Assembly (NCBI RefSeq): GCF_001561955.1 | Contig: NZ_CP014223.1 | Location: forward strand, 62,001 to 126,000 | Reading direction: 5' to 3' | DNA from: Anaerotignum propionicum DSM 1682 | Lineage (GTDB): Bacteria; Bacillota; Clostridia; Lachnospirales; Anaerotignaceae | Length of the DNA stretch: 64,000 nucleotides | Shown here: in pieces, positions 13,005 through 41,183 of the stretch | Layout of the letters: each line of letters starts with the position of its first letter | How positions within the stretch are numbered: the stretch's first letter is position 1 | Made by a program: the position numbers and the translations under genes | The notes under the pieces: generated by a model | Told to the model about the DNA's origin: nothing | Database searches by the model: none | Seen by the model: only the letters and a program-made list of their open reading frames with translations

Positions 13005-13946
13005 ATGAAAACAAGAAGTGTTGGTATTGTCGGAGTCGGTCATGTTGGTGCCCATTGTGCCTATAGCTTAGCGGTACAAGGCATTGTGGATGAATTGGTT
13101 TTAGTAGATATAAATGAACAAAAAGCAATCAGCGAGTGTCAGGATTTAAGGGATAGCGTTGCTTATTTGCCCCATCGGGTAGAGGTACGCACCGGCGGAT
13201 ATGCTGATTTAAAGGATTGTGATGTGGTGGTTGTCAGCGTTGGTGTTATTACTAAGAGTAATAACCGTTTGGATGAATTGAATGTATCCATCGGCATGGT
13301 AAACAGCTTTGTAAAGCAGGTGGTGGATGCAGGGTTTAACGGCATTTTCATTAATATTACAAACCCTTGTGACATTATTGCAAGACAGGTGCATAAGCTT
13401 TCCGGTTTTGATAAATCCCGTGTATTTGGTACAGGCACAGGCTTGGATAGCTCTCGTTTCAAGGCCGTTTTGTCCAGAGAAACTGGCATTGATCATAAAT
13501 CACTGGTGGCATATACCATGGGTGAGCACGGAGATTCCCAAATGGCACCTTGGTCTCATGTGACAGTAAATGGAAAACCTCTTGCAGAGCTTGCTAAAGA
13601 GAATGATAAATACAAAGTGGATCAGGCTGCAGTTTTGGAGGAAGCAACCAAGGGCGGCTGGGTGACTTTCGCTGGGAAAGGCTGCACAGAGTATGGTATT
13701 TCGTCAACCCTTGCACGTTTTGTTTATGCAATTTTCCATGATGAAAAGGTGGTTATGCCTTGCAGTACACAGTTAAACGGTGAATATGGGCAGAATGATA
13801 TTTTTATCAGTACTCCTTGTGTTATTGGGAAAAATGGTGTGGAAGAAGTGTTTGAACTAACCTTAAATGAAGAAGAACTGAAAGCGTTTCAACATTCCTG
13901 TGATGTAATCCGTACCAATATCGGTTATATTAACAAGGAGGCATAA
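13005..13946 (+). CDS. L-2-hydroxyacid (lactate-type) dehydrogenase
   Basis: A 313-residue NAD-dependent dehydrogenase of the LDH/MDH superfamily. It has the Rossmann motif GIVGVGHVGAHCAY, the NAD-selective acidic LVDIN, the active-site Arg in NNRLDELN, GLDSSRF (Asp and Arg) and the catalytic His in MGEHGDSQMAPWS. In the mobile loop the position normally Gln in lactate dehydrogenases appears to be Ile, so larger 2-oxoacids (as in L-2-hydroxyisocaproate dehydrogenase) are possible substrates. It lies directly behind lctP with AGGAGG. Confidence 0.88.
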   Translation: MKTRSVGIVGVGHVGAHCAYSLAVQGIVDELVLVDINEQKAISECQDLRDSVAYLPHRVEVRTGGYADLKDCDVVVVSVGVITKSNNRLDELNVSIGMVNSFVKQVVDAGFNGIFINITNPCDIIARQVHKLSGFDKSRVFGTGTGLDSSRFKAVLSRETGIDHKSLVAYTMGEHGDSQMAPWSHVTVNGKPLAELAKENDKYKVDQAAVLEEATKGGWVTFAGKGCTEYGISSTLARFVYAIFHDEKVVMPCSTQLNGEYGQNDIFISTPCVIGKNGVEEVFELTLNEEELKAFQHSCDVIRTNIGYINKEA

Positions 13947-28932: not shown

Positions 28933-29960
28933 TGATGAAAAAAAGAATATTTGCTTTTTTAATGACGGCGGTTATGGCAATTGGTGCAGCAGGCTGTGGC
29001 ACAAACAAGAGTAGTGAAGATGGTAGTGCCCCTAAAGAGGGTGAAAAGAAATTAGAGGATTTTTCAATTGTTTTGGATTGGTATCCTAATGCCATCCATA
29101 GTTTTTTGTATACAGGGATTGAAAAGGGCTATTTTGCAGAGGAAGGCTTAAACTTGGTTATTAATTTTCCTTCTAACGTGAATGATGGTATTTCCATGCC
29201 TGCAGCAGGCAAAGCAGATATCGGACTGTATTATTTGCAGGATGCAATTTTAACAGCTACCGAAGAAAATGTTCCCATTGTTTCCGTAGGTGCGTTGACA
29301 CAAAGCTCTCTCAATGTTGTAGTAGCCTTAAAAGATAGCGGCATTAGCGGTGCGAAAGATTTAAAGGGAAAGAAAATCGGATATTCGGGAACTTCCCTTT
29401 CAGAAGAACAAATTAAGTCTATGCTGGAAAATGTGGGCCTTAGCGCAGAGGATTGCCAATTTATTGACGTTGGCTTTGATTTGATGACTGCTTTAACCAC
29501 GGGACAGGTGGATGCCACAATTGGTAACATGGTAAACCATGAGGTGCCTCAGCTGGAAGAAAACGGCTTTGCCATCAACTACTTCTATCCTACTGAATTT
29601 GGCGTACCGCAGGCTTATGAACTGGTATTTTTAGCAGGCAAGGATGCAGTGGAAAAAAATCCTGAAAAAATTCAGAGATTTTTACGTGCTTGCCAAAAAA
29701 GCTTTGGGGATATGAAGGAGAATCCTGATGAAAGCTTGCAAATTTTATTAGATAATCAAAATGCTGAAAATTTCCCCTTGTCTAAAACAGTGGAACAAAA
29801 GAGCATGGAAACCTTGCTTCCTGTTATGGAAACCCCTGAGGCACCTTTCTTGCACCAAGAAGTGGATGTTTGGCAGAAAAATGCAGATTGGCTTTATGAG
29901 AGGGGCATTCTTTCTCAAAAGACAGACGTTACGCCTTTGGTTGTAAATTTAGTGGATTAA
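28932..29960 (+). CDS. ABC transporter substrate-binding lipoprotein, NMT1/THI5-like (ThiY-like)
   Basis: A 342-residue lipoprotein with signal peptide and lipobox FLMTAVMAIGAAGC. The mature part is an NMT1/THI5-like periplasmic-binding fold: FSIVLDWYPNAIHSFLYTGIEKGYF, then KGKKIGYSGTSLSE and DVGFDLMTALTTGQVDATIGNM. This family binds HMP-type pyrimidines. Start at 28932 overlaps the permease stop. The TPP riboswitch upstream supports the substrate class. Confidence 0.92.
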   Translation: MMKKRIFAFLMTAVMAIGAAGCGTNKSSEDGSAPKEGEKKLEDFSIVLDWYPNAIHSFLYTGIEKGYFAEEGLNLVINFPSNVNDGISMPAAGKADIGLYYLQDAILTATEENVPIVSVGALTQSSLNVVVALKDSGISGAKDLKGKKIGYSGTSLSEEQIKSMLENVGLSAEDCQFIDVGFDLMTALTTGQVDATIGNMVNHEVPQLEENGFAINYFYPTEFGVPQAYELVFLAGKDAVEKNPEKIQRFLRACQKSFGDMKENPDESLQILLDNQNAENFPLSKTVEQKSMETLLPVMETPEAPFLHQEVDVWQKNADWLYERGILSQKTDVTPLVVNLVD

Positions 29961-30050
29961 AGAAAGCAATGAGAATGTTTTAAATTTTGGCATGACATGC
30001 TTGAATTTTAGAAGAAAATTCAAAAGGGGCATTAAAGAAAGTGCTTCCCA

Positions 30051-30112
30051 ACCGCCTAAGGGCAATTTTTCGAAAATTTTTCGAAGGAAAACCCTTGGGC
30101 GCTTTTTATTTT
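30051..30112 (+). terminator. Terminator after the thiamine-precursor operon
   Basis: GCCTAAGGG and CCCTTGGGC pair around an A/T-rich loop that itself contains TTTTTCGAAAA; TTTTTATTTTT follows. The rest of 29961-30322 has only the promoter listed next. Confidence 0.7.
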
Positions 30113-30226
30113 TAGTGTCTTTTAAATCTTGAACGACGTCATTCTTAGGATTTCACTTGCGAAAAAGAAGAGATTTTGATTTTGTTTCTATTGTTCCATA
30201 GCAAAATGGATTATTCTGACATGAAA

Positions 30227-30255
30227 TTGATATTTTTTAAAAATAAAAGTATAAT
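30227..30255 (+). promoter_or_regulatory. Promoter of the short-chain dehydrogenase gene
   Basis: TTGATA (30227-30232), 17 bp, TATAAT (30250-30255). Confidence 0.75.
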
Positions 30256-30322
30256 ACAATAGAATAAATTAGAATAATAAATAAAAAAACTTTGAAATCA
30301 AATAGGATTAGGATGTGAAACA

Positions 30323-31075
30323 ATGAAAGCATTGGTGACAGGAGCATCAGGGGGCATTGGAAGGGATATCGCTCTAATTTTAAGCCGCATGGGTTATGAT
30401 TTGATTTTGGTAAGCAGGGATGCAGAAAAACTTGCCCGAGTGAAAAAGCATTTAAAAACCCATGTGCAGATTATTTCTGCTGATTTGTCTGTGGAGGAAG
30501 AGTGCTTTGCCCTTTATGAGCAGGTCAAGGAGCAAAATATTGATATATTGGTGAATAACGCAGGCTTTGGTACCTTTGGACATTTTTGGGAGGTACCTTT
30601 GGAGCGGGAGCTTAATATGTTGAATTTGAATGTGCGAGCAGTGCATATTCTGACAAAGCTGTTTTTAGAGGATTTTCGCAAGCGGGACAGCGGTTATATT
30701 TTAAATGTTGCCTCTGCGGCAGGTTTTATGCCCGGCCCTTTAATGGCAACCTATTATGCCACAAAAAACTATGTTTTAAGGCTTACGGAGGCGATTTATG
30801 AAGAATTGCGTAGAGACAGAAGCCAAGTGCATATTTCGGCCCTTTGTCCCGGCCCTGTGGATACAGGGTTTAACCAACGAGCAGAAGTAAGCTTTTCCCT
30901 AAGAGGGTTGCGGTCCTTTGATGTGGCTAAGTATGCCATTGAGGAGATGTTTGCGAATAAAGTGGTGATTATACCCGGTATTGCCATGAAGCTTGCCCAG
31001 TTCGGACGAAAATTTCTCGGCGAAAAAGCCCAGTTGAAAGCAGCATATTACTTTCAGCATAAAAAGAAAGGTTGA
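30323..31075 (+). CDS. Short-chain dehydrogenase/reductase
   Basis: A 250-residue SDR with the cofactor loop VTGASGGIGRDIA, NNAGFG, the catalytic Ser in LNVASAAG and YYATKNY (Tyr and Lys). The LVSRDAEKL after the second strand favours NADP. The substrate is unknown; it resembles the YqjQ/DltE-like group. The C terminus is basic. It overlaps or abuts the next gene. Confidence 0.9.
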   Translation: MKALVTGASGGIGRDIALILSRMGYDLILVSRDAEKLARVKKHLKTHVQIISADLSVEEECFALYEQVKEQNIDILVNNAGFGTFGHFWEVPLERELNMLNLNVRAVHILTKLFLEDFRKRDSGYILNVASAAGFMPGPLMATYYATKNYVLRLTEAIYEELRRDRSQVHISALCPGPVDTGFNQRAEVSFSLRGLRSFDVAKYAIEEMFANKVVIIPGIAMKLAQFGRKFLGEKAQLKAAYYFQHKKKG

Positions 31076-31080
31076 AAAGG

Positions 31081-31911
31081 ATGCGGGGCTTGGGTGAAAA
31101 GGCAGACCGCCGTTGGAAACGGGTGATTTTCCATACGTTGGATGGGTATTTTTCCAATGGGATTAGCAAAACAGCGGCGTCCTTAACCTATTATTTTATT
31201 TTTGCAATTTTTCCGTTCTTAATTTTTATTAGTTCCCTTTTGGGTTTTTTGCATTTGCCCATGATTACTGTAGAAGGGGATGCCTCCGCATTACTGCCTG
31301 CGGATGTGGTAGCGTTAATTAATTTAACCATTGCCCATATGACGGAAACCAGCAGCGGTGCATGGTTGACCTTTGGTTTGGTTTTTACCGTTTGGTTTCC
31401 CTTGCGGGCTGTGAGTAGTCTAGTGGGTGCAATCAACGGTATTTATGGGGATGAGAAAATGCTGAAACATACCCTACGCATTATATTCCTTTCCCTTTTA
31501 ATGATAATATTTGTGCCGGTATTGCTTATGGTGCTACTGATTAGCAAAGAAGTGATGGAGTTTATCAGTATTTTTGTGCCCATGGCGGAAACCTTTATTG
31601 ATTTATGGTCTAGGATACGGTTTTTACCCATTTCCCTTGGCGTTTTGTTTTTCATCAGTGGTGTTTATTTTCTTTCACCTAACCAGCGACCACTAAAAAG
31701 ATATGTTTTTCCGGGAGCGATTCTTTCCACGGCGGCATGGATACTTTTTTCTGCAGGGTTTGCCTATTATGTGGATCATGTGGGGAAATACTCTGTGATT
31801 TATGGCTCCATAGGTGCCATTATTGCTTTTTTGGTATGGCTGAATGCCAGTGTTGCGGCTTTGCTCATGGGGGCTGTTTTTAATCAGGCGTTGCGCAGAG
31901 AATTTCAATAA
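31081..31911 (+). CDS. YihY/BrkB family membrane protein
   Basis: A 276-residue protein with six membrane segments: GISKTAASLTYYFIFAIFPFLIF, the GAINGIYGDEK loop and VYGSIGAIIAFLVWLNASVAALLMGAVFNQAL at the end. This is the YihY family, once called RNase BN. The role is not established. I chose ATG 31081, with AAAGG 9 nt upstream, over the TTG at 31072. It probably forms one transcript with the dehydrogenase. Confidence 0.87.
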   Translation: MRGLGEKADRRWKRVIFHTLDGYFSNGISKTAASLTYYFIFAIFPFLIFISSLLGFLHLPMITVEGDASALLPADVVALINLTIAHMTETSSGAWLTFGLVFTVWFPLRAVSSLVGAINGIYGDEKMLKHTLRIIFLSLLMIIFVPVLLMVLLISKEVMEFISIFVPMAETFIDLWSRIRFLPISLGVLFFISGVYFLSPNQRPLKRYVFPGAILSTAAWILFSAGFAYYVDHVGKYSVIYGSIGAIIAFLVWLNASVAALLMGAVFNQALRREFQ

Positions 31912-31913
31912 AA

Positions 31914-31956
31914 AGAGTTCTGATTGGATTTTTCCAATTGGGACTTTTTTTATTGA
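31914..31956 (+). terminator. Terminator after the YihY gene
   Basis: AGTTCTGATTGGA and TCCAATTGGGACT pair with wobble positions around TTTT, followed by seven T residues. Confidence 0.75.
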
Positions 31957-32212
31957 ACAAAAATTGTGTAGGAATCAATGGGAGAGCAAAAACAAAAGGT
32001 TACCATAATATAGAAATATATCAAGTTTTGCAAATAAAGGTGAAGATATTTATAAAATATAAAAAATAGGAATAATGTAGAGTGAATTCCAATAATTAGT
32101 AATAATATATGGTTAAATTTTCATATAAAACCATATACAAGTAAATAATTGCACAAAAATTGCATCAATATTTCACTGCTATTACAATTACATTACAGAT
32201 TGACATAACGTA

Positions 32213-32241
32213 TTGCAAAACAATTTTGGGCTTCGTATAAT
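32213..32241 (+). promoter_or_regulatory. Promoter of the first stalk-domain surface protein gene
   Basis: TTGCAA (32213-32218), 17 bp, TATAAT (32236-32241). It leaves a leader of about 230 nt. The stretch 31957-32210 is AT-rich with no gene. Confidence 0.75.
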
Positions 32242-32247
32242 GAGCAG

Positions 32248-32475
32248 GCAAAGTAAATAACGCTTGCAGAAACTTTGGAGCGTCATGGAGGGAGGCAATC
32301 GGAGAGACAAAGTTTTTTTATGCTGAATGGGTGAAAGAAAAGCGGCGTTTTGAAGACGGCTAAACAATGTGACTGCATCAAAGGGGTCTGGGGAGGAGTT
32401 GAACTGCATTCGTTTTATAATTATGCAACGAACGAAAACGAACAAAGTACATATTTTTAAAGGAGGAATGTAACG
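32248..32475 (+). promoter_or_regulatory. Long leader of the first surface protein gene with a 24-nt inverted repeat
   Basis: TTCGTT (32409-32414) and AACGAA (32427-32432) flank a 12-nt centre with ATAATTAT. The leader of the second gene has the same arms with the same spacing. AAAGGAGGAATGTAACG precedes the start codon in both, and a GTAAAT and GGGAGGCA block is also shared, so the two leaders are related. Confidence 0.6.
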
Positions 32476-34710
32476 ATGAAGAAAGTAATATCTTTCTTGA
32501 TGGCTGCAGCCATGGTTACTTCACTTGTTCCCGCAACAGCGTTTGCGGCAGGCGATGTAACTGCTACAGCTAAAGTAATCGATGCCTTGGAAAGAGGCAA
32601 AGATTTCGACGGTGTGATTGATGCAGCTAACGCACCAGAATTGCAATTGAAGGTTACAAGTGCTGACTATACAACAGGTGGCAGCACACCTACAGTTGAT
32701 GTAACAGTATCTTTGGACGGTGCAGAATTTACTGCAACCGATGCGGCTGGTTTTGAAGGAATGGTAAAAGTAACTAATCCTGCAGCAGTTACCGTAGCAA
32801 CAAAGGAATTTTCAGAAGACGAAGTAACTTACACCTTGACAGGCCAGCTTAAGAAGGACGACGTTGTTGCAATTAACTTGGCTTCCAAAATGACAAAGGT
32901 TTCTGTTGGCAAAACAGCAACTGTATCCGTTGATTCCAAAATGGCAAAAGCTGATGATTTAGTTTATGCTTCCGTTTTGGACAAAGGCATCAAAGCTTCC
33001 GTTAAGAAAACAGTAAGCGTAGCTGTTGACGAAGTAGCAACAATTAATAGCAAGGGCTTAAAAATTGAACCTTCTGTTGATGATTCTTACGCAGTAGGCA
33101 CACAGTTCACATTAAAGCTTTCCAAAGGTTTTGAGTTTGCAAACACAACTGTAACAGGCGCTGCTGATTGGGCAATCGACGGTAGCGAAGCTACTTTCAC
33201 AGCACCTTCCGTTGATGAATTCACTTTGACAGGTATCAAAGTTGAAGCTACATCCGCAAAGGTTGGCGACGTTGCTACAATTAAAGTAACAGCGAAAAAC
33301 GTTGGCACAGCTTCCGTAGAAGTTGCTAAGGTTGTTGATTACAAAGTAGGCGTTTCCGTTGATGCAGACGAAGACGTACCTGTAATCTACAGCGGTACAG
33401 ACGTAAACAACACAGGCTTGACAGATGATTCCGATCACATGACCTTGGAAGTAACAGCAGAGGAAACATTCCCCGGCGCTTGGTCCATGAGACAGGGCTT
33501 CAACTTCACATTGCCTGAAGGCGTATATGTAACAGACGTAGACGTTATTGAAGCAGAAAACTTCTTGCAGGGTAACGTAGCAGTTGGTACAACTGAATGG
33601 GAAGCAGCTTTCAAAGCAGCTTACGATAAAGGCGATTACAATGGCTTCACATTTGCAAAGAGAGTATTTGATGATGTAAATACAAACCTTGCTGCTGATC
33701 CTGCAAGTGTTACCTTTAAGTTACAGCTTGTAGCTGATCCTACTTTCGAAGGCGATGTAAAATTAGGCTTTGAAGGCGCTTTGGTTGATGCACAGGAAGT
33801 AACTGTAGCAAAATTCGTTAAACCTTACACAGTAAAAGCAGAACAGAACGACGTAATCATCGATTACAGAAACACATCTGTTCAGACACCTATCACAATC
33901 ACAGAAGCAGAAGCAGGCTTATGGGCAGCTAACTCTGTATTCACACTTACAGTAGATAGAGGCGACATGATTCAGTTTGAAGATGACGCAACCTTCTCTG
34001 TAAACGATTCCGGCTTGGAATTGAAAGATGAGAAGACAAAAGATGGTCAGCTTGCATTTACTGTAAAGAGCGAATCCGATGAAGCAGCAACTGTAGAAAT
34101 CAAAGATATCGCATTGTTCATGCAGAGAAACGTACCTGCAGGCGCTTATGACCTGAAGGCTGAAACAGCAATGAGCACAGCTTATGACAAACAGGCGATT
34201 TATGCAGCAGATGGTAAAGACAACAACATCATTGATGATGTTGCAGATTACAGCAAAGTTGTAAAAGAAGCATTCATTAATGTAGTAACAAGCGGTAGAG
34301 ACAATGACAACCTGTTCACAACAAAGGTAGTAGTACCTGTTGGCGAAGCTTACTTAATGGCTGGTTCCACAAAGGTTGAATTGGATGTACCCGCTTACAT
34401 CAGCGCAACAAACTACACAATGCTTCCTATTAGAGCAGTATCCAAGGCTCTTGGTGTAAACACAAACAACGTATTGTGGAGTGCAGAAACAAAAACTATC
34501 ACAATCATGTATGCACAGAGAATCATTACAATGGTAGTTGGTCAGAAGACAATCAACGTAAACGGTTCTTCCATCCCCGCATCCGCAGCACCTGAAATCA
34601 CAGGCGACAGAGCATTCTTGCCTATGAGAGATTTGGCTACAGCTTTGGGTGTAACTGATATCACATGGGATGCAGCAACAAGAACAGCTACATTGAACGG
34701 TGGCAAATGA
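32476..34710 (+). CDS. Secreted protein with C-terminal stalk domain, probable surface-layer protein (paralogue 1)
   Basis: A 744-residue exported protein. Signal peptide KVISFLMAAAMVTSLVPATAFA, then a long acidic beta-rich region with few cysteines. The last 120 residues are a stalk domain of the copper amine oxidase N-terminal type: two units YTMLPIRAVSKALGVNTNNVLW and RAFLPMRDLATALGVTDITWD, each ending in a WxxxTxT strand. In Clostridia these domains are common on surface proteins. The codons are strongly biased (ACA, GTA, GCA, GAA), pointing to high expression. It is closely similar to the next gene along the whole length. A structural S-layer role is inference. Confidence 0.8.
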   Translation: MKKVISFLMAAAMVTSLVPATAFAAGDVTATAKVIDALERGKDFDGVIDAANAPELQLKVTSADYTTGGSTPTVDVTVSLDGAEFTATDAAGFEGMVKVTNPAAVTVATKEFSEDEVTYTLTGQLKKDDVVAINLASKMTKVSVGKTATVSVDSKMAKADDLVYASVLDKGIKASVKKTVSVAVDEVATINSKGLKIEPSVDDSYAVGTQFTLKLSKGFEFANTTVTGAADWAIDGSEATFTAPSVDEFTLTGIKVEATSAKVGDVATIKVTAKNVGTASVEVAKVVDYKVGVSVDADEDVPVIYSGTDVNNTGLTDDSDHMTLEVTAEETFPGAWSMRQGFNFTLPEGVYVTDVDVIEAENFLQGNVAVGTTEWEAAFKAAYDKGDYNGFTFAKRVFDDVNTNLAADPASVTFKLQLVADPTFEGDVKLGFEGALVDAQEVTVAKFVKPYTVKAEQNDVIIDYRNTSVQTPITITEAEAGLWAANSVFTLTVDRGDMIQFEDDATFSVNDSGLELKDEKTKDGQLAFTVKSESDEAATVEIKDIALFMQRNVPAGAYDLKAETAMSTAYDKQAIYAADGKDNNIIDDVADYSKVVKEAFINVVTSGRDNDNLFTTKVVVPVGEAYLMAGSTKVELDVPAYISATNYTMLPIRAVSKALGVNTNNVLWSAETKTITIMYAQRIITMVVGQKTINVNGSSIPASAAPEITGDRAFLPMRDLATALGVTDITWDAATRTATLNGGK

Positions 34711-34810
34711 GAAATGCAGGAAATTGAGGGCTTAGTCCTCAAACCCCCACAAGGGATTTTCCCTTGACCTGTTGAGGAGGGGCAGACAAATGGTCTGCCT
34801 CTCTTTTTAT
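34707..34810 (+). repeat. Composite 3' hairpin element, copy C (after paralogue 1), including terminator
   Basis: GAGGGCTTAGTCCTC hairpin, AAACCCCC spacer, ACAAGGGATTTTCCCTTG hairpin with GACC, then GGGGCAGAC/GTCTGCCTC with CTTTTT as the terminator. It is the same arrangement as at copy B after the ThrE genes. Confidence 0.65.
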
Positions 34811-35035
34811 GTTACAAAATGGTTTGTTAGAAATAATTTGAACTTAGGTTAGAAAAGTTTTTTCAAGAACAAATAGGGGCATAGAGTGCCTTTTTTTTGT
34901 TATGCACCCCTATATCTTGGGCATTCAAAGGGACAAACACCAAGGTGTAGAAAACCGCTTTAAGTACTGTAAAACTGGCATATTTACGCAATGTTGCTCC
35001 TATATTACAGTTATGTTACATTTTGCCAATGTCTC

Positions 35036-35064
35036 TTGCCATTTTAAGAATCCCTGCGTATAAT
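35036..35064 (+). promoter_or_regulatory. Promoter of the second stalk-domain surface protein gene
   Basis: TTGCCA (35036-35041), 17 bp, TATAAT (35059-35064). It leaves a leader of about 236 nt, like that of paralogue 1. The gap 34811-35035 holds no gene. Confidence 0.75.
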
Positions 35065-35070
35065 AATCTT

Positions 35071-35306
35071 GCATAGTAAATGGTAATGCTTTCCTATTGA
35101 TGAAACGGATCGGGACGGGAGGCAGAGCTTAGGGACGGCGTTTTGCTCTCTTAAATGGGTGTGAGGGGAGAACAAAGAAACTAAGGTTTGGCAAACGAAG
35201 CGCAAAGGGACGTGAGTAGTAAAGTGGCACAATTGAAAAGCATTCGTTGTATAATTATAAAACGAAACACAACTAAAATTAAAATGTTAAAAGGAGGAAT
35301 TTAACG
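35071..35306 (+). promoter_or_regulatory. Long leader of the second surface protein gene with a 24-nt inverted repeat
   Basis: TTCGTT (35243-35248) and AACGAA (35261-35266) flank GTATAATTATAA; the whole is palindromic except at two symmetric positions. It lies 41 nt before the start codon, against 44 nt in paralogue 1. AAAAGGAGGAATTTAACG is the shared ribosome site region. Confidence 0.6.
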
Positions 35307-38141
35307 ATGAAGAAGTTTATTTCTTTCGTTATGGCTGGCGCTATGGTGGCATCCCTTGTACCTGCAACTGCATTTGCAAAGGGCGATGTTACAGCAACAG
35401 CTAAAATCGTTGACGCTTTAGAAAAAGCTAAAGATTTCAACGGTGTAATTACACAGGCAAATGCGCCTGAACTTCAGTTGAAGGTGACAAATGTAGACTA
35501 CACAGTAACAAATCCTGCATTAGCTACGATGGATGTTGAATTGTCATTGGATAAGGCGGAGTTCAATTTGACATCTGCTCAGTTAAAAGATTTGGTAGCT
35601 GTAATTGATGAGGACGGACTTGACGCTTTGACAGGTAAGTCAACATCTCAGGTGTGGGAAGATTCTGCAACAGGCACAATTTTGAAAAAAGGTACAACTG
35701 AAATAAAAATTGCTGACCTTGCAGATATTGCAGCTGAAGCTGACAATGACAAAGCAGTTCTTGACATTTTGAAAAACTATAGTGGTGCATTGAATGGTAC
35801 AACTGGCAATGATATTAATGAAACAATGACAAAAGGTGTTATGACAGCTGTAATCTATGCAACAGATGGTACTGGCGCTGTGACTACTTCTATAGACAAA
35901 GCAGCTATTGTTGATTTGTTAGAACAAGGTTACACCTTTGCAGCTGGTAGCAATATCACACTGACATCTACTGATAGTAGACTTGGTGGCGCTTATAGCT
36001 CAACTTTAGACGCGGCAGACAGAGATGCAATTGATGTTGATACTCAGATTGCTTGGTATGTTGCTGAAAGCTATGTAAGAGGTGGCTATAAAACGGTAGG
36101 AGAGACAGTTGCTCCTCGTTTGGCTGTATCTGTAAAAGAATTTGACAAAGATAGCGTAACTTATACATTTACTGGCTTCTTCAAGAAAGATGACAAAGTA
36201 ATTATTGACTTGGCTTCCACATTGACAAAAACAAGCGAAGGCACAAAAGCTACAGTATCCGTTAATTCTAAAATGGTAACAGCTGATGACTTGGTTTATG
36301 CTTCCATCCTTGGCAAAGGCTTCAAGGTTTCTGTAAAGAAGACTGTAGACGTAGCTCAAGAGGAAGTTGTAAAATTAAACAGCAATGGCTTAAAGATTGA
36401 ATCTGCTGTTGACAATTTGCCATCTAAAGTAACTTTGAAGATTTCCAATGGCTTTGAATTTACAAAGGATAATAATGGAATTCACGGTACAAACTATGAT
36501 ATCGTTAGAGTAGATGAAAAAGAATTGACAGTAAATGTTACTGGTTCTGTTGATGAAATCACAGTAAAAGACATCGAAATTGAAGCTACATCCGCAAAGT
36601 CTGGCGCTGTTGCAACAATTACAGCTAAGGCTAGCAACAATGACTCTGCTTCTTGCGAAGTAGCTAAAGTTGTTGATTACAAAGTATCTTTTACAGTAGA
36701 CAAAGATGAAGACATCCCTGTAATCTACAGCGGTACTAATGTTGGAAACGCTGGTATCACAGACGATTCCGATCATATGTCTTTGGAAGTAACAGCTAAA
36801 GAAACTTTCCCTGGTGCTTGGTCCATGAGACAAGGCTTTAACTTCAACCTTCCTGAAGGTGTTTATGTAACTGATGTTAAGGTTACAGATGCAGACAACT
36901 TCTACCAGAAGGGTGTAGAAAAAGGTACAGCTGAATGGGATGTAGCTTTCTTTGATGCATACCAGAAGGGCGACCACAAGAACTTTGAATTTGAAAAAAG
37001 AGTATTTGATGATGTTGATACAAAATTAAATTCTGATCCAGCAGAACTTACTTTCCAGTTGGAATTAGTAGCTGATCCTACTTTCGAAGGTGATGTCAAA
37101 TTAACATTCGAAGGCGCTTTGGTTGATAAGCAGGAAGTAACAATTGCTAAATTTGTAAAACCTTACACAGTTAAGGCAGAACAGAACGATGTAATCATCG
37201 ACTACAGAAACACAGAAGTTAAGACTCCTATCGTAATCACAGAAGCTGAAGAAGGTCTGTGGGAGAAGGATGCAACATTCAAATTGAGCATTGAAGATGA
37301 TCTTCTTACATTTGAAAATGACCCTACATTCACAATCGACAAAGATTCCGATCTGAAGTTGAAAGATGACAAGACTACAAAGGGTACAATTCAGTTCGCA
37401 GTGAAAGAAACTTCCGACAAGGCATCAACTGTAACAATTTCCGATATGAAACTGTTCATGAGCAGAAGCATTCCTGCAGGTGCTTATGATTTGGAAATTG
37501 CAACAACAATGAGCGAAGCTTATGACGCACAGTTGCTCTTTGCTCCTGATCAGATTAAAGATCAGGCTAGTGCAACAGATGCAGCATTGAAGGCATTGAA
37601 AGATAAGTGGACAGCAAAAACATCTACAGATAAGCGTCCTTCCGAATCCGATGTTAAGAAAGACAGCTATGTAGATGACGTATGCGATTACAGTGATGTT
37701 GTAAAAGCAGCTTTCATCAATGTAGTAACATCCGGTAGAGACAACGACAACCTGTTCACAACAAAGGTAGTTGTACCTGTTGGCGAAGCTTACTTGCTTG
37801 CTGGCGAAGCAAAAGTTGAATTGGATGCACCTGCTTACATCAGTGCAGCTGGTTACACAATGCTTCCTGTAAGAGCAATCTCCAAGGCTCTTGGCGTTAA
37901 CACAAACAACGTATTGTGGAATGCTGAAACAAGAACAGTAACTGTTATGTATGCTCAGAGAATCATCACTATGACTGTTGGTCAGAAGACAATCTATGTT
38001 AATGGTTCCGCTATCCCTTCATCCGCAGCTCCTGAAATCAAAGACGGCAGAACATTCTTGCCTTTGAGAGATTTGGGTACAGCTTTGGGCGTAACAAACG
38101 TTAACTGGGATGCAGCAACAAAGACAGCTACATTGAACTAA
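35307..38141 (+). CDS. Secreted protein with C-terminal stalk domain, probable surface-layer protein (paralogue 2)
   Basis: A 944-residue exported protein with signal peptide FISFVMAGAMVASLVPATAFA. It aligns with paralogue 1 at both ends and through the middle (DSDHM, FPGAWSMRQGFNF, ADPTFEGDVKL, KPYTVKAEQNDVIIDYRNT, INVVTSGRDNDNLFTTKVVV). It differs by an insert of about 170 residues near 95-265 and one of about 35 residues near 740-780 (SATDAALKALKDKWTAKTS). The C-terminal 110 residues are the stalk domain. Codon use is biased as in paralogue 1. Its insert carries most of the difference and is a candidate for variable surface exposure. Confidence 0.8.
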   Translation: MKKFISFVMAGAMVASLVPATAFAKGDVTATAKIVDALEKAKDFNGVITQANAPELQLKVTNVDYTVTNPALATMDVELSLDKAEFNLTSAQLKDLVAVIDEDGLDALTGKSTSQVWEDSATGTILKKGTTEIKIADLADIAAEADNDKAVLDILKNYSGALNGTTGNDINETMTKGVMTAVIYATDGTGAVTTSIDKAAIVDLLEQGYTFAAGSNITLTSTDSRLGGAYSSTLDAADRDAIDVDTQIAWYVAESYVRGGYKTVGETVAPRLAVSVKEFDKDSVTYTFTGFFKKDDKVIIDLASTLTKTSEGTKATVSVNSKMVTADDLVYASILGKGFKVSVKKTVDVAQEEVVKLNSNGLKIESAVDNLPSKVTLKISNGFEFTKDNNGIHGTNYDIVRVDEKELTVNVTGSVDEITVKDIEIEATSAKSGAVATITAKASNNDSASCEVAKVVDYKVSFTVDKDEDIPVIYSGTNVGNAGITDDSDHMSLEVTAKETFPGAWSMRQGFNFNLPEGVYVTDVKVTDADNFYQKGVEKGTAEWDVAFFDAYQKGDHKNFEFEKRVFDDVDTKLNSDPAELTFQLELVADPTFEGDVKLTFEGALVDKQEVTIAKFVKPYTVKAEQNDVIIDYRNTEVKTPIVITEAEEGLWEKDATFKLSIEDDLLTFENDPTFTIDKDSDLKLKDDKTTKGTIQFAVKETSDKASTVTISDMKLFMSRSIPAGAYDLEIATTMSEAYDAQLLFAPDQIKDQASATDAALKALKDKWTAKTSTDKRPSESDVKKDSYVDDVCDYSDVVKAAFINVVTSGRDNDNLFTTKVVVPVGEAYLLAGEAKVELDAPAYISAAGYTMLPVRAISKALGVNTNNVLWNAETRTVTVMYAQRIITMTVGQKTIYVNGSAIPSSAAPEIKDGRTFLPLRDLGTALGVTNVNWDAATKTATLN

Positions 38142-38159
38142 TCAATTGTAACTGAAATA

Positions 38160-38220
38160 AAATCTTGAAGGCTTACCTTTAAGTAACCCGAAAGGGGCAG
38201 ACATTGTCTGCCCCTTTTTT
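38160..38220 (+). terminator. Terminator after paralogue 2, partial copy D of the composite element
   Basis: GGGGCAGAC and GTCTGCCCC pair around ATT(G) with a TTTTTT tail; the same GGGCAGAC stem ends copies B and C. A weaker AAGGCTTACCTT hairpin lies before it. Confidence 0.85.
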
Positions 38221-38356
38221 GTTGTAAGTTACAGGAAGAACAATAAAATCTACGTAAGAAATGATTAAGATATCCTTAATTCGCTGGCATTTTCGTAAAA
38301 ATATGATATAATTGGTTTTATTATAAAAGTAAATGAACCTTTAAGGAGGAAATACC

Positions 38357-39577
38357 ATGAAAAAAATAATCGGGAACCCCAGAGGTGCTGTGGCACTGGC
38401 TCTGGTGGTAACTCTTTTTGGTACCACTGCATATGCCGCAGAAGTAGCCCCTACAACACAAACTGTTGCGACTCAAGGAGAACAAGCTATTCCTGTTTTA
38501 ACTTTCGAGGAAGCATTGAAAAAGGTAAAAAACAATAGTAAAGACTTAGTTAATTTGCAGAAACAAAGTGATTTTCTTCAGGAAACCAAAGAGGATATCT
38601 GGGACGCAGTAGGTACTTTTTCTACGCCTACCTATGAATATCAGAAATGGGTGGATAGTGGGGTGCATCAGTATACTTCAGCTATTTATTCAACAAATAG
38701 TGGTATGACAAAAAATAAATATCAAACACAATCTGTTAACTTAGCTATGGAGTCAACTTTGAAAGGTACATTTTCCACGATTGTAGAGACTGAAGAGACT
38801 CTGAAATTAATGAAAGAAACCTTGGCGATTAGCAAAACCATTTATGAGCAAGGGCAAACTAAAAATAACTTGGGCATGCTTAGCAAATTTGAATTAAATA
38901 AACTCAAAGCAACCTATGATGCAAATAAAACAAAGGTTTATCAGTTGGAAAAGAACTTGGAACAAAGCTACATTAACTTGAATAATTTGATGGGTGAGTC
39001 ACCTGATAAACAGTATACATTGGATTATAATGTAGAGTTCGAGCCTTATGTTCTGCAAGGTACGATTGAGTTATATATCAATGCTGCGATGAAAAACGAC
39101 ATGGATATTTTGGTGGCGGCACAGGCCGTTGAGGATGCTAAATTTAACAAAAATTTTGTATCAGAAAACACATTGAATACTACCAATAAAGAGAATAAGC
39201 TTACCTATGAAGTTGCACAAAGAGCATATAAAAAGGCAAAAGAAGATAAAGATATTGCTATCCGCAATGCATATATTCAATTGCAGCAATCAGAAGCAAA
39301 TTATAATCAGTTAAAAGCTGATTTGGAACAGGCAAAGGCTACTTTAAAAACTGCTGAAGTAAATTATAGAATCGGAAATACAACAAAGCTTACATTGGAT
39401 CAAGCTCAATTAGCAGTTACCAAAGAAGAGTTTGCTTTGAAGAGTTTTGCAAGAAGTTATGATATGCAAGTATTTGCATTCAAAAATACAAGCTTAATTT
39501 CAGGGGGAAGTGCAGCCGGTAGCGGAAGCGCGAAAACCAGTGGAAGTGCAAGTAGTGATAATGATGAAGGTAAATAA
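38357..39577 (+). CDS. Secreted TolC-fold (outer membrane efflux-like) protein
   Basis: A 406-residue protein with a signal peptide (ALALVVTLFGTTAYA) and two long helical coiled-coil repeats, each ending in the TolC pattern: NNLGMLSKFELNKLKATYDANK and NYRIGNTTKLTLDQAQLAVTKEE. The first follows a VLTFEEALKKVKNNS start. TolC/OEP proteins form trimeric export channels in diderms; in a spore-forming monoderm the role is unclear. The C terminus is a Gly/Ser-rich tail (GGSAAGSGSAKTSGSASS). It has no transport partner here. It follows the surface-protein pair and precedes gerA. Confidence 0.78.
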   Translation: MKKIIGNPRGAVALALVVTLFGTTAYAAEVAPTTQTVATQGEQAIPVLTFEEALKKVKNNSKDLVNLQKQSDFLQETKEDIWDAVGTFSTPTYEYQKWVDSGVHQYTSAIYSTNSGMTKNKYQTQSVNLAMESTLKGTFSTIVETEETLKLMKETLAISKTIYEQGQTKNNLGMLSKFELNKLKATYDANKTKVYQLEKNLEQSYINLNNLMGESPDKQYTLDYNVEFEPYVLQGTIELYINAAMKNDMDILVAAQAVEDAKFNKNFVSENTLNTTNKENKLTYEVAQRAYKKAKEDKDIAIRNAYIQLQQSEANYNQLKADLEQAKATLKTAEVNYRIGNTTKLTLDQAQLAVTKEEFALKSFARSYDMQVFAFKNTSLISGGSAAGSGSAKTSGSASSDNDEGK

Positions 39578-39586
39578 AGAAATGAA

Positions 39587-39622
39587 GAAAACGTCCATGA
39601 AAATATGGGCGTTTTTTTATTT
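39587..39622 (+). terminator. Terminator after the TolC-fold gene
   Basis: AACGTCCAT and ATGGGCGTT pair around GAAAAT, followed by TTTTTTATTTT. Confidence 0.85.
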
Positions 39623-39710
39623 TCTTAAAGTAGGAGAAAAGATGACCATCGTTTAGGTATAGTTTCGAATCTTTTTGGAAAAATAAGCAAAAGGAAAGGC
39701 GGTGGAATTT

Positions 39711-41183
39711 ATGCAGATTTCAAAAAATCTGTCGGAAAATATGATTGCCATCAAGGAGGCCTTCCGCGACTGCGGTGACGTTGTAATGCGGGAGTTTGTT
39801 GTTGGCAGTGGAAAATCCAGAATATTTATGATTTACACAGATAATATTGTAGATAGCCACACAATACATGATTTCATTATGACCAATTTAATGAGTCGCT
39901 ATAAGGAGTGTAATGAAAGCGGCTTGCTAGACGCATTTATGGATGATATTATTGCCGTAGGCGAAGTAGGCAAAATTAATGAGATTCAGCAGGCGTTGGA
40001 CGCAGTTTTGTTGGGGGATACAGTACTTTTTATGGATGGAAATGCTTTTGCCCTTCAAGTTTCCACAAAAGGCTTTCCTTCCCGTGGTGTAAACCAAGCC
40101 CAGACGGAAGTGGTTGTGCTGGGGCCAAAGGATGCTTTTTTGGAGGTAATGGCAACAAATATCGTTTTAATTCGCCGTCGAATTCGGGATAATAGGCTTA
40201 AGCTAAAGCGAAAAAAAATCGGTACACGAAGCAAAACAGACGTTGCGATGATGTACATGGAGGATTTGGTGCGACCAAAAACTCTGGAGATTGTGGAAAA
40301 ACAATTGGATACTATGAATTTAGACGCAATTTTGGATAGTGGTTATGTGGTACAACTTCTGGAGAAGCGTTGGGCATCGCCCTTTCCTCAATTACAGATG
40401 ACAGAAAGACCTGATAAAGCTGCCTCGGCATTATTGGAGGGCAGGGTGGTATTGGTCATTGATAATACACCCGTTGTTGTGATGCTTCCTGTCACCCTAA
40501 ATGTCTTTTTTCAGGCGGCAGAGGATTATTACGACCGCTGGCAGATTATGAGCTTTATTCGGGCCATACGCTATGTAGCGGCGGTGGTTGCCATCTCTCT
40601 ACCGGGGCTTTATATTGCTTTATCGGTGTACCATCCGGAATTGATACCCACTGCCTTAGCAATAAAAATTGCGGCAACTAGGCAGAATATACCCTTTTCT
40701 GTAGTTGGGGAGGTAATTATTATGGAGTTGGCATTTGAGCTTTTGCGAGAGGCGGGCATTCGATTGCCTTCTCCTGTAAGTTCCACCATTGGTATTGTGG
40801 GCGGTATTATTATTGGGTCTGCAGCGGTAGAGGCGGGGATAGTCAGCCCCACGGTTGTGATTATTTCCGCCCTCACGGGGATTTGCTCTTTTGTAATTCC
40901 CAATATAGCTCTAGTTTCCGGATTGCGGCTCAGTAAGTATGTAACCATATTTTTATCGGCGATTTTTGGTTTATTTGGACTTTGGATTGCTTTGTTACTG
41001 ATTTTGGCTCATTTATGCAGTCTGTCCTCCTACGGAATTCCATTTATGTATCCCTTTTGCTCAGCATCAGTCAATGATGACATAGATTGGGAGGATACCA
41101 TCTTACGTTTGCCATTACAAAAAATGAAACGGAGGCCTATCTTCACAAGACCATCAGCCAGGGGGCGGAAAGGGAGATCATAA
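39711..41183 (+). CDS. gerAA: Spore germination protein, GerA family A subunit
   Basis: A 490-residue protein with a cytoplasmic N-terminal domain and a membrane part. It has the GerA signatures LLEKRWASPFPQLQMTERPDKA, EGRVVLVIDNTPVVVMLPV and ELLREAGIRLPSPVSSTIGIVGG. With the B and C subunits it forms a nutrient receptor in the inner membrane of the spore. AAAGGCGGTG precedes the ATG at 39711. The next gene starts 3 bp after the stop. Confidence 0.93.
   Translation: MQISKNLSENMIAIKEAFRDCGDVVMREFVVGSGKSRIFMIYTDNIVDSHTIHDFIMTNLMSRYKECNESGLLDAFMDDIIAVGEVGKINEIQQALDAVLLGDTVLFMDGNAFALQVSTKGFPSRGVNQAQTEVVVLGPKDAFLEVMATNIVLIRRRIRDNRLKLKRKKIGTRSKTDVAMMYMEDLVRPKTLEIVEKQLDTMNLDAILDSGYVVQLLEKRWASPFPQLQMTERPDKAASALLEGRVVLVIDNTPVVVMLPVTLNVFFQAAEDYYDRWQIMSFIRAIRYVAAVVAISLPGLYIALSVYHPELIPTALAIKIAATRQNIPFSVVGEVIIMELAFELLREAGIRLPSPVSSTIGIVGGIIIGSAAVEAGIVSPTVVIISALTGICSFVIPNIALVSGLRLSKYVTIFLSAIFGLFGLWIALLLILAHLCSLSSYGIPFMYPFCSASVNDDIDWEDTILRLPLQKMKRRPIFTRPSARGRKGRS

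Follow-up and report, generated by a model that had tools for sequence, protein, structure and literature searches.

Tandem genes for probable S-layer proteins in Anaerotignum propionicum, with a species-specific segment in one copy and a palindromic element in both leaders

A hexagonal or grid-like surface layer has been described for Anaerotignum propionicum and Anaerotignum neopropionicum, its subunits measuring 16-19 nm in the former and 4-7 nm in the latter (PMC10053330). The S-layer of A. propionicum was seen there by electron microscopy, and its gene is not named in the available part of that report (PMC10053330). An Anaerotignum S-layer gene was also not named in the open-licence literature searched, which is no proof of its absence in print. 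The question of which genes encode this layer is raised by two adjacent genes in a 64,000 nt stretch of the A. propionicum DSM 1682 genome (referred to here as the window), for which an initial annotation had proposed a duplicated S-layer-type gene. The analysis supports this as the best reading on the basis of codon bias, a C-terminal PF07833 domain and a tree of the protein cores, and it is likely (probability about 0.7) that the two genes, copy 1 and copy 2, encode S-layer proteins of A. propionicum.

The genome is a single 3.12 Mb replicon carrying 7 small-subunit rRNA genes, in agreement with the published account of A. propionicum DSM 1682 (PMC4832176). Its G+C content was 39% in 141 kb of stretches examined and 41% in the window, which does not match the 44.08% given for A. 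propionicum DSM 1682 (PMC4832176). The window also carries an L-LDH-type gene at 13005-13946 (75.0 kb in the genome), about where one would expect CPRO_00680 of A. propionicum, which is named as LdhB in the accessible text of PMC10053330.

Copy 1 (coordinates 32476 to 34710, forward strand) encodes an exported-looking protein of 744 amino acids (aa) with an Ig-like body and a C-terminal PF07833 domain, and copy 2 (35307 to 38141, forward strand) encodes a 944 aa paralogue with two inserts. The N-terminus of each contains a signal-peptide-like stretch ending in AFA, as judged by eye. The two proteins shared 57% identity over 794 columns and 70% identity over residues 1-91 in a BLASTP comparison, and 66% identity in a MAFFT alignment. 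Both methods placed the extra residues of copy 2 at 92-262 (insert 1, about 171 residues; coordinates 35580 to 36092, forward strand), a segment unlike that in other species, and at 751-783 (insert 2, 33 residues; 37557 to 37655, forward strand), in a linker preceding the C-terminal domain, the linker being modelled with low confidence. The ORFs, both alignments and the AFA stretch thus agree with the initial description of adjacent exported proteins of these lengths that align throughout, and the two inserts had first been placed near residues 95-265 and 740-780.

The PF07833 domain (copper amine oxidase N, or 'stalk'), which is the proposed wall anchor, occupies residues 632-739 of 744 in copy 1 (34369 to 34692, forward strand) and 835-942 of 944 in copy 2 (37809 to 38132, forward strand), so that both proteins have a long body followed by a C-terminal PF07833. 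Neither includes an SLH domain (PF00395) or a CWB2 domain (PF04122) at E<=1, and CWB2 was not found in the genome at E<=0.001. A catalytic domain was not found in either protein using Pfam or NCBIfam; the NCBIfam search returned nothing above cut-off, and the Pfam matches below cut-off were weak ones to DUF5013, Zona_CL2, NOMO_5th, DUF1454 and hGDE_central. Insert 1 had no Pfam match at E<=1. In the whole genome there are 18 PF07833 matches, and the only full-length relatives of copy 1 and copy 2 are each other, the remaining matches of copy 1 being confined to its C-terminal domain. Elsewhere in the genome, five of the seven proteins scanned combine PF07833, on their N-terminal side, with a second domain, which is PdaC (2), trypsin-like, lactamase-like or amidase_3. 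As PF07833 also occurs in other exported proteins of the genome, it is not an S-layer marker, and the domains to which it is joined suggest that it is a wall-side module. According to the part of PMC4137172 that was available, Desulfotomaculum reducens has PF07833 proteins among those of its surface proteome.

Structure prediction of both proteins, which the initial annotation had proposed as a check, was informative for the body and not for insert 1. The AlphaFold models were of middling quality (pLDDT 72 and pTM 0.46 for copy 1; pLDDT 62 and pTM 0.38 for copy 2), and residues 114-267 of copy 2 scored under 50, leaving the insert 1 region without a confident model. The bodies were predicted to form a chain of Ig-like beta domains, and insert 1 would fall in the first domain, between the strands that span residues 73-81 and 105-112 in copy 1. 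Foldseek gave matches to Ig-like domains of surface proteins, including AgI/II and integrins, with PrgB at E 3.5e-12 (TM 0.17) and the S-layer protein SbsB at rank 48, all matches having a low whole-chain TM. Pilins and PrgB were found in a second structure comparison at Z 8-9, a range that is commonly reached. These matches indicate a type of fold and not a function, and no family is settled by them. When solved structures were searched by sequence, there was no match for copy 1 at E<=1 and none for profile A3 at E<=0.1.

Measured against the S10/spc region, codon adaptation, which is a proxy for expression only, was 0.799 for copy 1 and 0.785 for copy 2. These values are the top two of 45 window ORFs and lie inside the ribosomal-protein range, bearing out the biased codons reported initially. 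The S10/spc reference included some non-ribosomal ORFs, and a stricter reference (20 ORFs of the ribosomal stretch) gave 0.796 and 0.768. Insert 1 scored lower (0.70 vs 0.78); however, a low score was also found in the first 150 residues of copy 1, hence insert 1 is not necessarily recent.

Each gene was found to have its own promoter-like and terminator-like sites, all on the forward strand. Promoter-like site 1 (TTGCAA-17-TATAAT; coordinates 32213 to 32241) matches 10 of 12 consensus positions, and promoter-like site 2 (TTGCCA-17-TATAAT; 35036 to 35064) matches 11 of 12, the highest score among the 19 in the region. Upstream of each is a pair of TTACA direct repeats (32182 to 32197 and 35005 to 35020) that lie 11 nt apart and are kept in the genus alignment. 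Taken to begin directly after the -10 box, the leaders extend from 32242 to 32475 for copy 1 and from 35065 to 35306 for copy 2, and terminator-like hairpins follow the genes at 34774 to 34806 and 38190 to 38218, respectively. The stem sequence GGGGCAGAC is common to the two hairpins.

The 19 promoter-like sites are not above the 15.5 (sd 4.1) found in shuffles, and support for the two promoters therefore comes from their conserved place in the genus. The control region, reaching from the start codon back to ~60 nt upstream of the -35 box, could be aligned among seven copy 1 and six copy 2 genes of the genus, the aligned parts being the two TTACA repeats, the -35 and -10 boxes, the leader and a 24-nt element (S). 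Leader length to the ATG was 222-249 nt in 24 genes of several genera, the -10 box in G017 and G027 having been placed by eye. The conserved sites and leaders of ~230 nt are in keeping with the promoters and long leaders that had been recorded for the pair. A structured leader RNA was considered and rejected, as folding resembled that of shuffles, only the 24-nt element is kept across genera and no Rfam family was found. Whole-leader folding was little better than in shuffles (z -1.6 and -0.9), and the five Rfam matches on 29000-40000 were all under their gathering scores. Folds built from the genus only had two-sided changes in 6 of 51 pairs for copy 2 and in 17 of 61 pairs for copy 1, many of the latter being broken in other rows, and when the 24 leaders of several genera were used only the 24-nt element remained, with eight pairs and no two-sided changes.

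The pair was compared with its counterparts in seven other same-genus genomes, each representing one species. Six of these (G001-G005 and G007) carry a counterpart of copy 1 with 79-84% identity, and the counterpart in G006 is 50% identical. Copy 1 is constant, at 743-744 aa and without the insert, in seven of the eight same-genus genomes (own included), the eighth, G006, having a different arrangement. The gene order SDR, YihY-like, copy 1, copy 2, TolC-like, GerA, GerB-like, GerC-like was found in G001, G002, G004 and G007, with a 250 aa reverse ORF between copy 1 and copy 2 in G004 and the TolC-like frame broken into two ORFs in G001. G003 and G005 are cut off by a contig end within or close to copy 2. 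The TolC-like (PF02321) protein encoded directly after copy 2 (window 38357-39577) has counterparts near genes of the copy 1/copy 2 family in many of the relatives inspected, despite the described Gram-positive wall. A scan of named genomes identified at least 13 loci, only some of which are full relatives, one locus (L053) being from Anaerotignum sp. MSJ-24. In a search of the class, among the matches listed those to the body from beyond Anaerotignaceae were in G050 and G235.

Identity between copy 1 proteins (15 pairs) was 0.76-0.83 in the core and 0.83-0.93 in the C-terminal part, compared with 0.61-0.70 and 0.81-0.94 between copy 2 proteins (10 pairs), and 0.58-0.63 and 0.76-0.88 between copy 1 and copy 2 of one genome (5 pairs). 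The C-terminal part is thus the best conserved, at 76-94% in all pairs compared. The inserts of copy 2 aligned poorly, with an identity of 0.15-0.33 (10 pairs), and that stretch comprises 41-201 residues in the five complete copy 2 proteins. Similarity at E<0.01 was detected in one of the ten species pairs (G001-G002, E 5e-14) and none was detectable in the other nine; the initial annotation had named invariance of the insert among relatives as evidence against its reading, and the opposite was found. In 59 other genomes, nothing matched insert 1 of copy 2 at E<=0.001 (best 0.008), and the insert's one match at E<=1 in its own genome was itself. The N-terminal stretch of a partial copy 2 in G003 (L031:5-1102) is similar to those of G027, UC5.1-1D10 and G017 and is closer to other genera than to its own, which hints at insert exchange.

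In a tree of the core, for which 19 of 28 rows were used, copy 1 (7 rows, support 90/97) and copy 2 (6 rows, support 98/97, one long row belonging to another genus) formed separate clades. The partial sequence G003_c2p was left out, as were G013_a, G013_c, G017_a, G031_a, G031_b, G027_a, UC51_b and G015_a, in which the cutting motif was not found. The mean end branch within the genus was 0.29 for copy 2 and 0.11 for copy 1 (about 2.7 times longer). From this tree, copy 1 and copy 2 are old paralogues that fall in separate clades over the genus, and a recent duplication is rejected. A tree of the C-terminal part was mostly unresolved and is compatible with or without exchange between the copies. 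As copy 2 varies at the insert site in all five species in which it is complete, this is a standing variable site and not the product of a single gain. Hence, of the earlier view that one copy had gained exposed segments, the insert itself is present in copy 2, but the gain gives way to a standing variable site in an old paralogue, and the segment is presumably exposed.

Each leader contains an imperfect 24-nt palindrome, S1 (TTCGTTTTATAATTATGCAACGAA; coordinates 32409 to 32432, forward strand) for copy 1 and S2 (TTCGTTGTATAATTATAAAACGAA; 35243 to 35266, forward strand) for copy 2. A search allowing <=2 mismatches gave 18 occurrences of S, spread over 10 of 36 genomes (own included), and a single match in total to a reversed control pattern. 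With <=1 mismatch, it was found at 33 places in 18 of 58 same-family genomes (own included), the control pattern being absent from the matches listed. All 33 sites are followed, 28-51 nt downstream, by the start of a copy 1/copy 2 family gene. The search left only positions 7, 17 and 18 free, and invariance at the other positions is therefore partly by choice. Judged from these searches, S appears to be a new element that is found only before genes of this family. It is present with <=1 mismatch in 22 of the 42 family genes inspected. G013_b carries S, G006_e has 2 mismatches, G013_c has 3 and G006_c has 4, and 5 or more were counted in G009, G015, G021, G036, G058, L051-L054, L060, G028_a and G006_a, b and d.

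S may act as an RNA hairpin, an operator or a recombination site. An RNA hairpin is favoured by positions 8-17, which are T-A (19) or T-G (14) in the 33 sites, and by positions 7-18, which fail to pair in all 33, the pattern expected of a stem with a one-by-one internal loop. However, folding of S is weak (z -0.5 for S1 and -1.8 for S2) and there are no two-sided changes in S among 24 leaders, both of which count against a hairpin. A DNA dyad is favoured by G006_e, in which the centre has changed from AATT to CATG with symmetry retained, and by G013_c, in which pair 9-16 has changed from A-T to G-C and pair 12-13 is broken. A recombination site is favoured by S1 and S2 matching each other best in inverted orientation (23 of 24 positions).

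The last of these roles bears on the proposal, made in the initial annotation, that the pair supports phase or host-dependent switching, with recombination between the copies, or at S1/S2, changing the surface protein made. Campylobacter fetus sap and Lactobacillus acidophilus slp are S-layer loci that switch, and the inversion site of slp is a short site in the 5' region. The pair resembles them in being tandem paralogues with like ends, an unlike stretch and a short repeated upstream site, and copy 1 sites (T7..C18) and most copy 2-type sites (G7..A18) are reverse complements. However, in contrast to sap and slp, both genes have promoters and the same orientation, and no spare variable part was found. 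From the map, an inversion between S1 and S2 would separate both genes from their promoters and silence them, and the core of S (AT) is symmetric and would not fix a direction. Insert 1 is present once in the genome (E<=1), and switching by spare cassettes was thus rejected for this genome. The longest exact run common to copy 1 and copy 2 is 26 bp, the arrangement is the same in G001, G002, G004 and G007, and leader type matches gene type in 13 of 13 genes. These features speak against the proposal, and switching at this locus is very improbable. Some evidence in its favour comes from G006, where five family copies are present on both strands at C1 348-407 kb (L033-L035). Copies b and e are unlike in the middle and nearly identical at their ends, sharing 94.6% of the first 111 nt and 96.7% of the last 426 nt; e has a promoter match, and none was seen at the corresponding place in b and c. 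Any switching in the genus would best be sought in the five-copy region of G006. This region also includes a serine-recombinase-like ORF (L034:12471-13370). No serine recombinase was found in the window, the nearest being about 35 kb from copy 2, and three to four large serine-recombinase ORFs were seen at each of 1856-1862 kb and 1927-1931 kb in the A. propionicum genome (G000:C1).

A different explanation is that copy 1 and copy 2 are abundant surface adhesins or wall-stalk proteins lying over an S-layer made by an SLH protein. About 16 SLH loci in the genome could build or share a layer, and Ig-like adhesins and pilins account for most of the structural matches. SLH-anchored S-layer proteins, such as SbsB, resemble copy 1 and copy 2 in being exported and having Ig-like parts, and differ in their SLH domain. 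As a rule, the S-layer protein is the most abundant protein. However, the codon adaptation of 14 SLH ORFs (from 14 of the 16 loci, seven of these ORFs being incomplete at stretch ends) was 0.52-0.68 vs 0.80 and 0.79 for copy 1 and copy 2. SlpA and the CWP family of Clostridioides difficile have one variable and one conserved wall-binding part, as is proposed for copy 1 and copy 2, but they have CWB2 domains, which is absent from both proteins and from the genome at the thresholds given above. A closer parallel is Swol_0133 of Syntrophomonas wolfei, a predicted S-layer protein of 78 kDa with a PF07833-type domain at its C-terminal end, and it is likened to copy 1 and copy 2 by layout and description (long body, C-terminal PF07833 and size). 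In the accessible text of the respective reports, it ranks first in abundance in the membrane fraction (PMC3582634), is among the most abundant S. wolfei proteins (PMC4324140) and is the product of the highest expressed gene (PMC11087674). Its combination of the same layout with high abundance, taken with the codon values, makes an overlying adhesin or stalk unlikely, though less so than switching. In the part of PMC3582634 available, Swol_0133 is not described as belonging to a constant and variable pair, unlike copy 1 and copy 2. The Pfam name of the C-terminal domain, copper amine oxidase, could further suggest that the two are secreted enzymes or their inhibitors and not a notable surface pair; however, both lack a detectable catalytic domain and PF07833 proteins without an amine oxidase domain are reported in the available part of PMC4137172, so that this can be given almost no weight.

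If copy 1 and copy 2 are S-layer proteins, both would be made at a high level, side by side, and exported as rods of Ig-like beta domains, with the C-terminal PF07833 domain attaching them to the wall. Copy 1 would be the constant lattice protein packed in the layer, and copy 2 an old paralogue expressed beside it, in or on the same layer, which may display its species-specific segment from an N-terminal, wall-distal domain. Variety would then arise between species via replacement of the segment and not by switching inside a cell, and phages, hosts or neighbours may exert the pressure behind the diversity of the copy 2 face.

The pair provides named candidate genes for the S-layer seen by microscopy in A. 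propionicum, and may bear on the difference in subunit size between this species (16-19 nm) and A. neopropionicum (4-7 nm). An S-layer type with a long body and a C-terminal PF07833 has until now rested on one predicted case, Swol_0133. A constant and a variable partner would also offer a test of whether lattice geometry can be kept while one partner diversifies. There is perhaps an even chance that some Anaerotignaceae control their S-layer genes via a dedicated cis element, TTCGTTNTATAATTATNNAACGAA, that is nearly invariant at 28-51 nt from the start codon and is used by no other gene, serving either as a hairpin in the mRNA or as an operator for its own regulator, atop a two-protein coat with one constant and one species-specific component. 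The 24-nt element would in that case be a handle on how the cell adjusts production of its most abundant protein.
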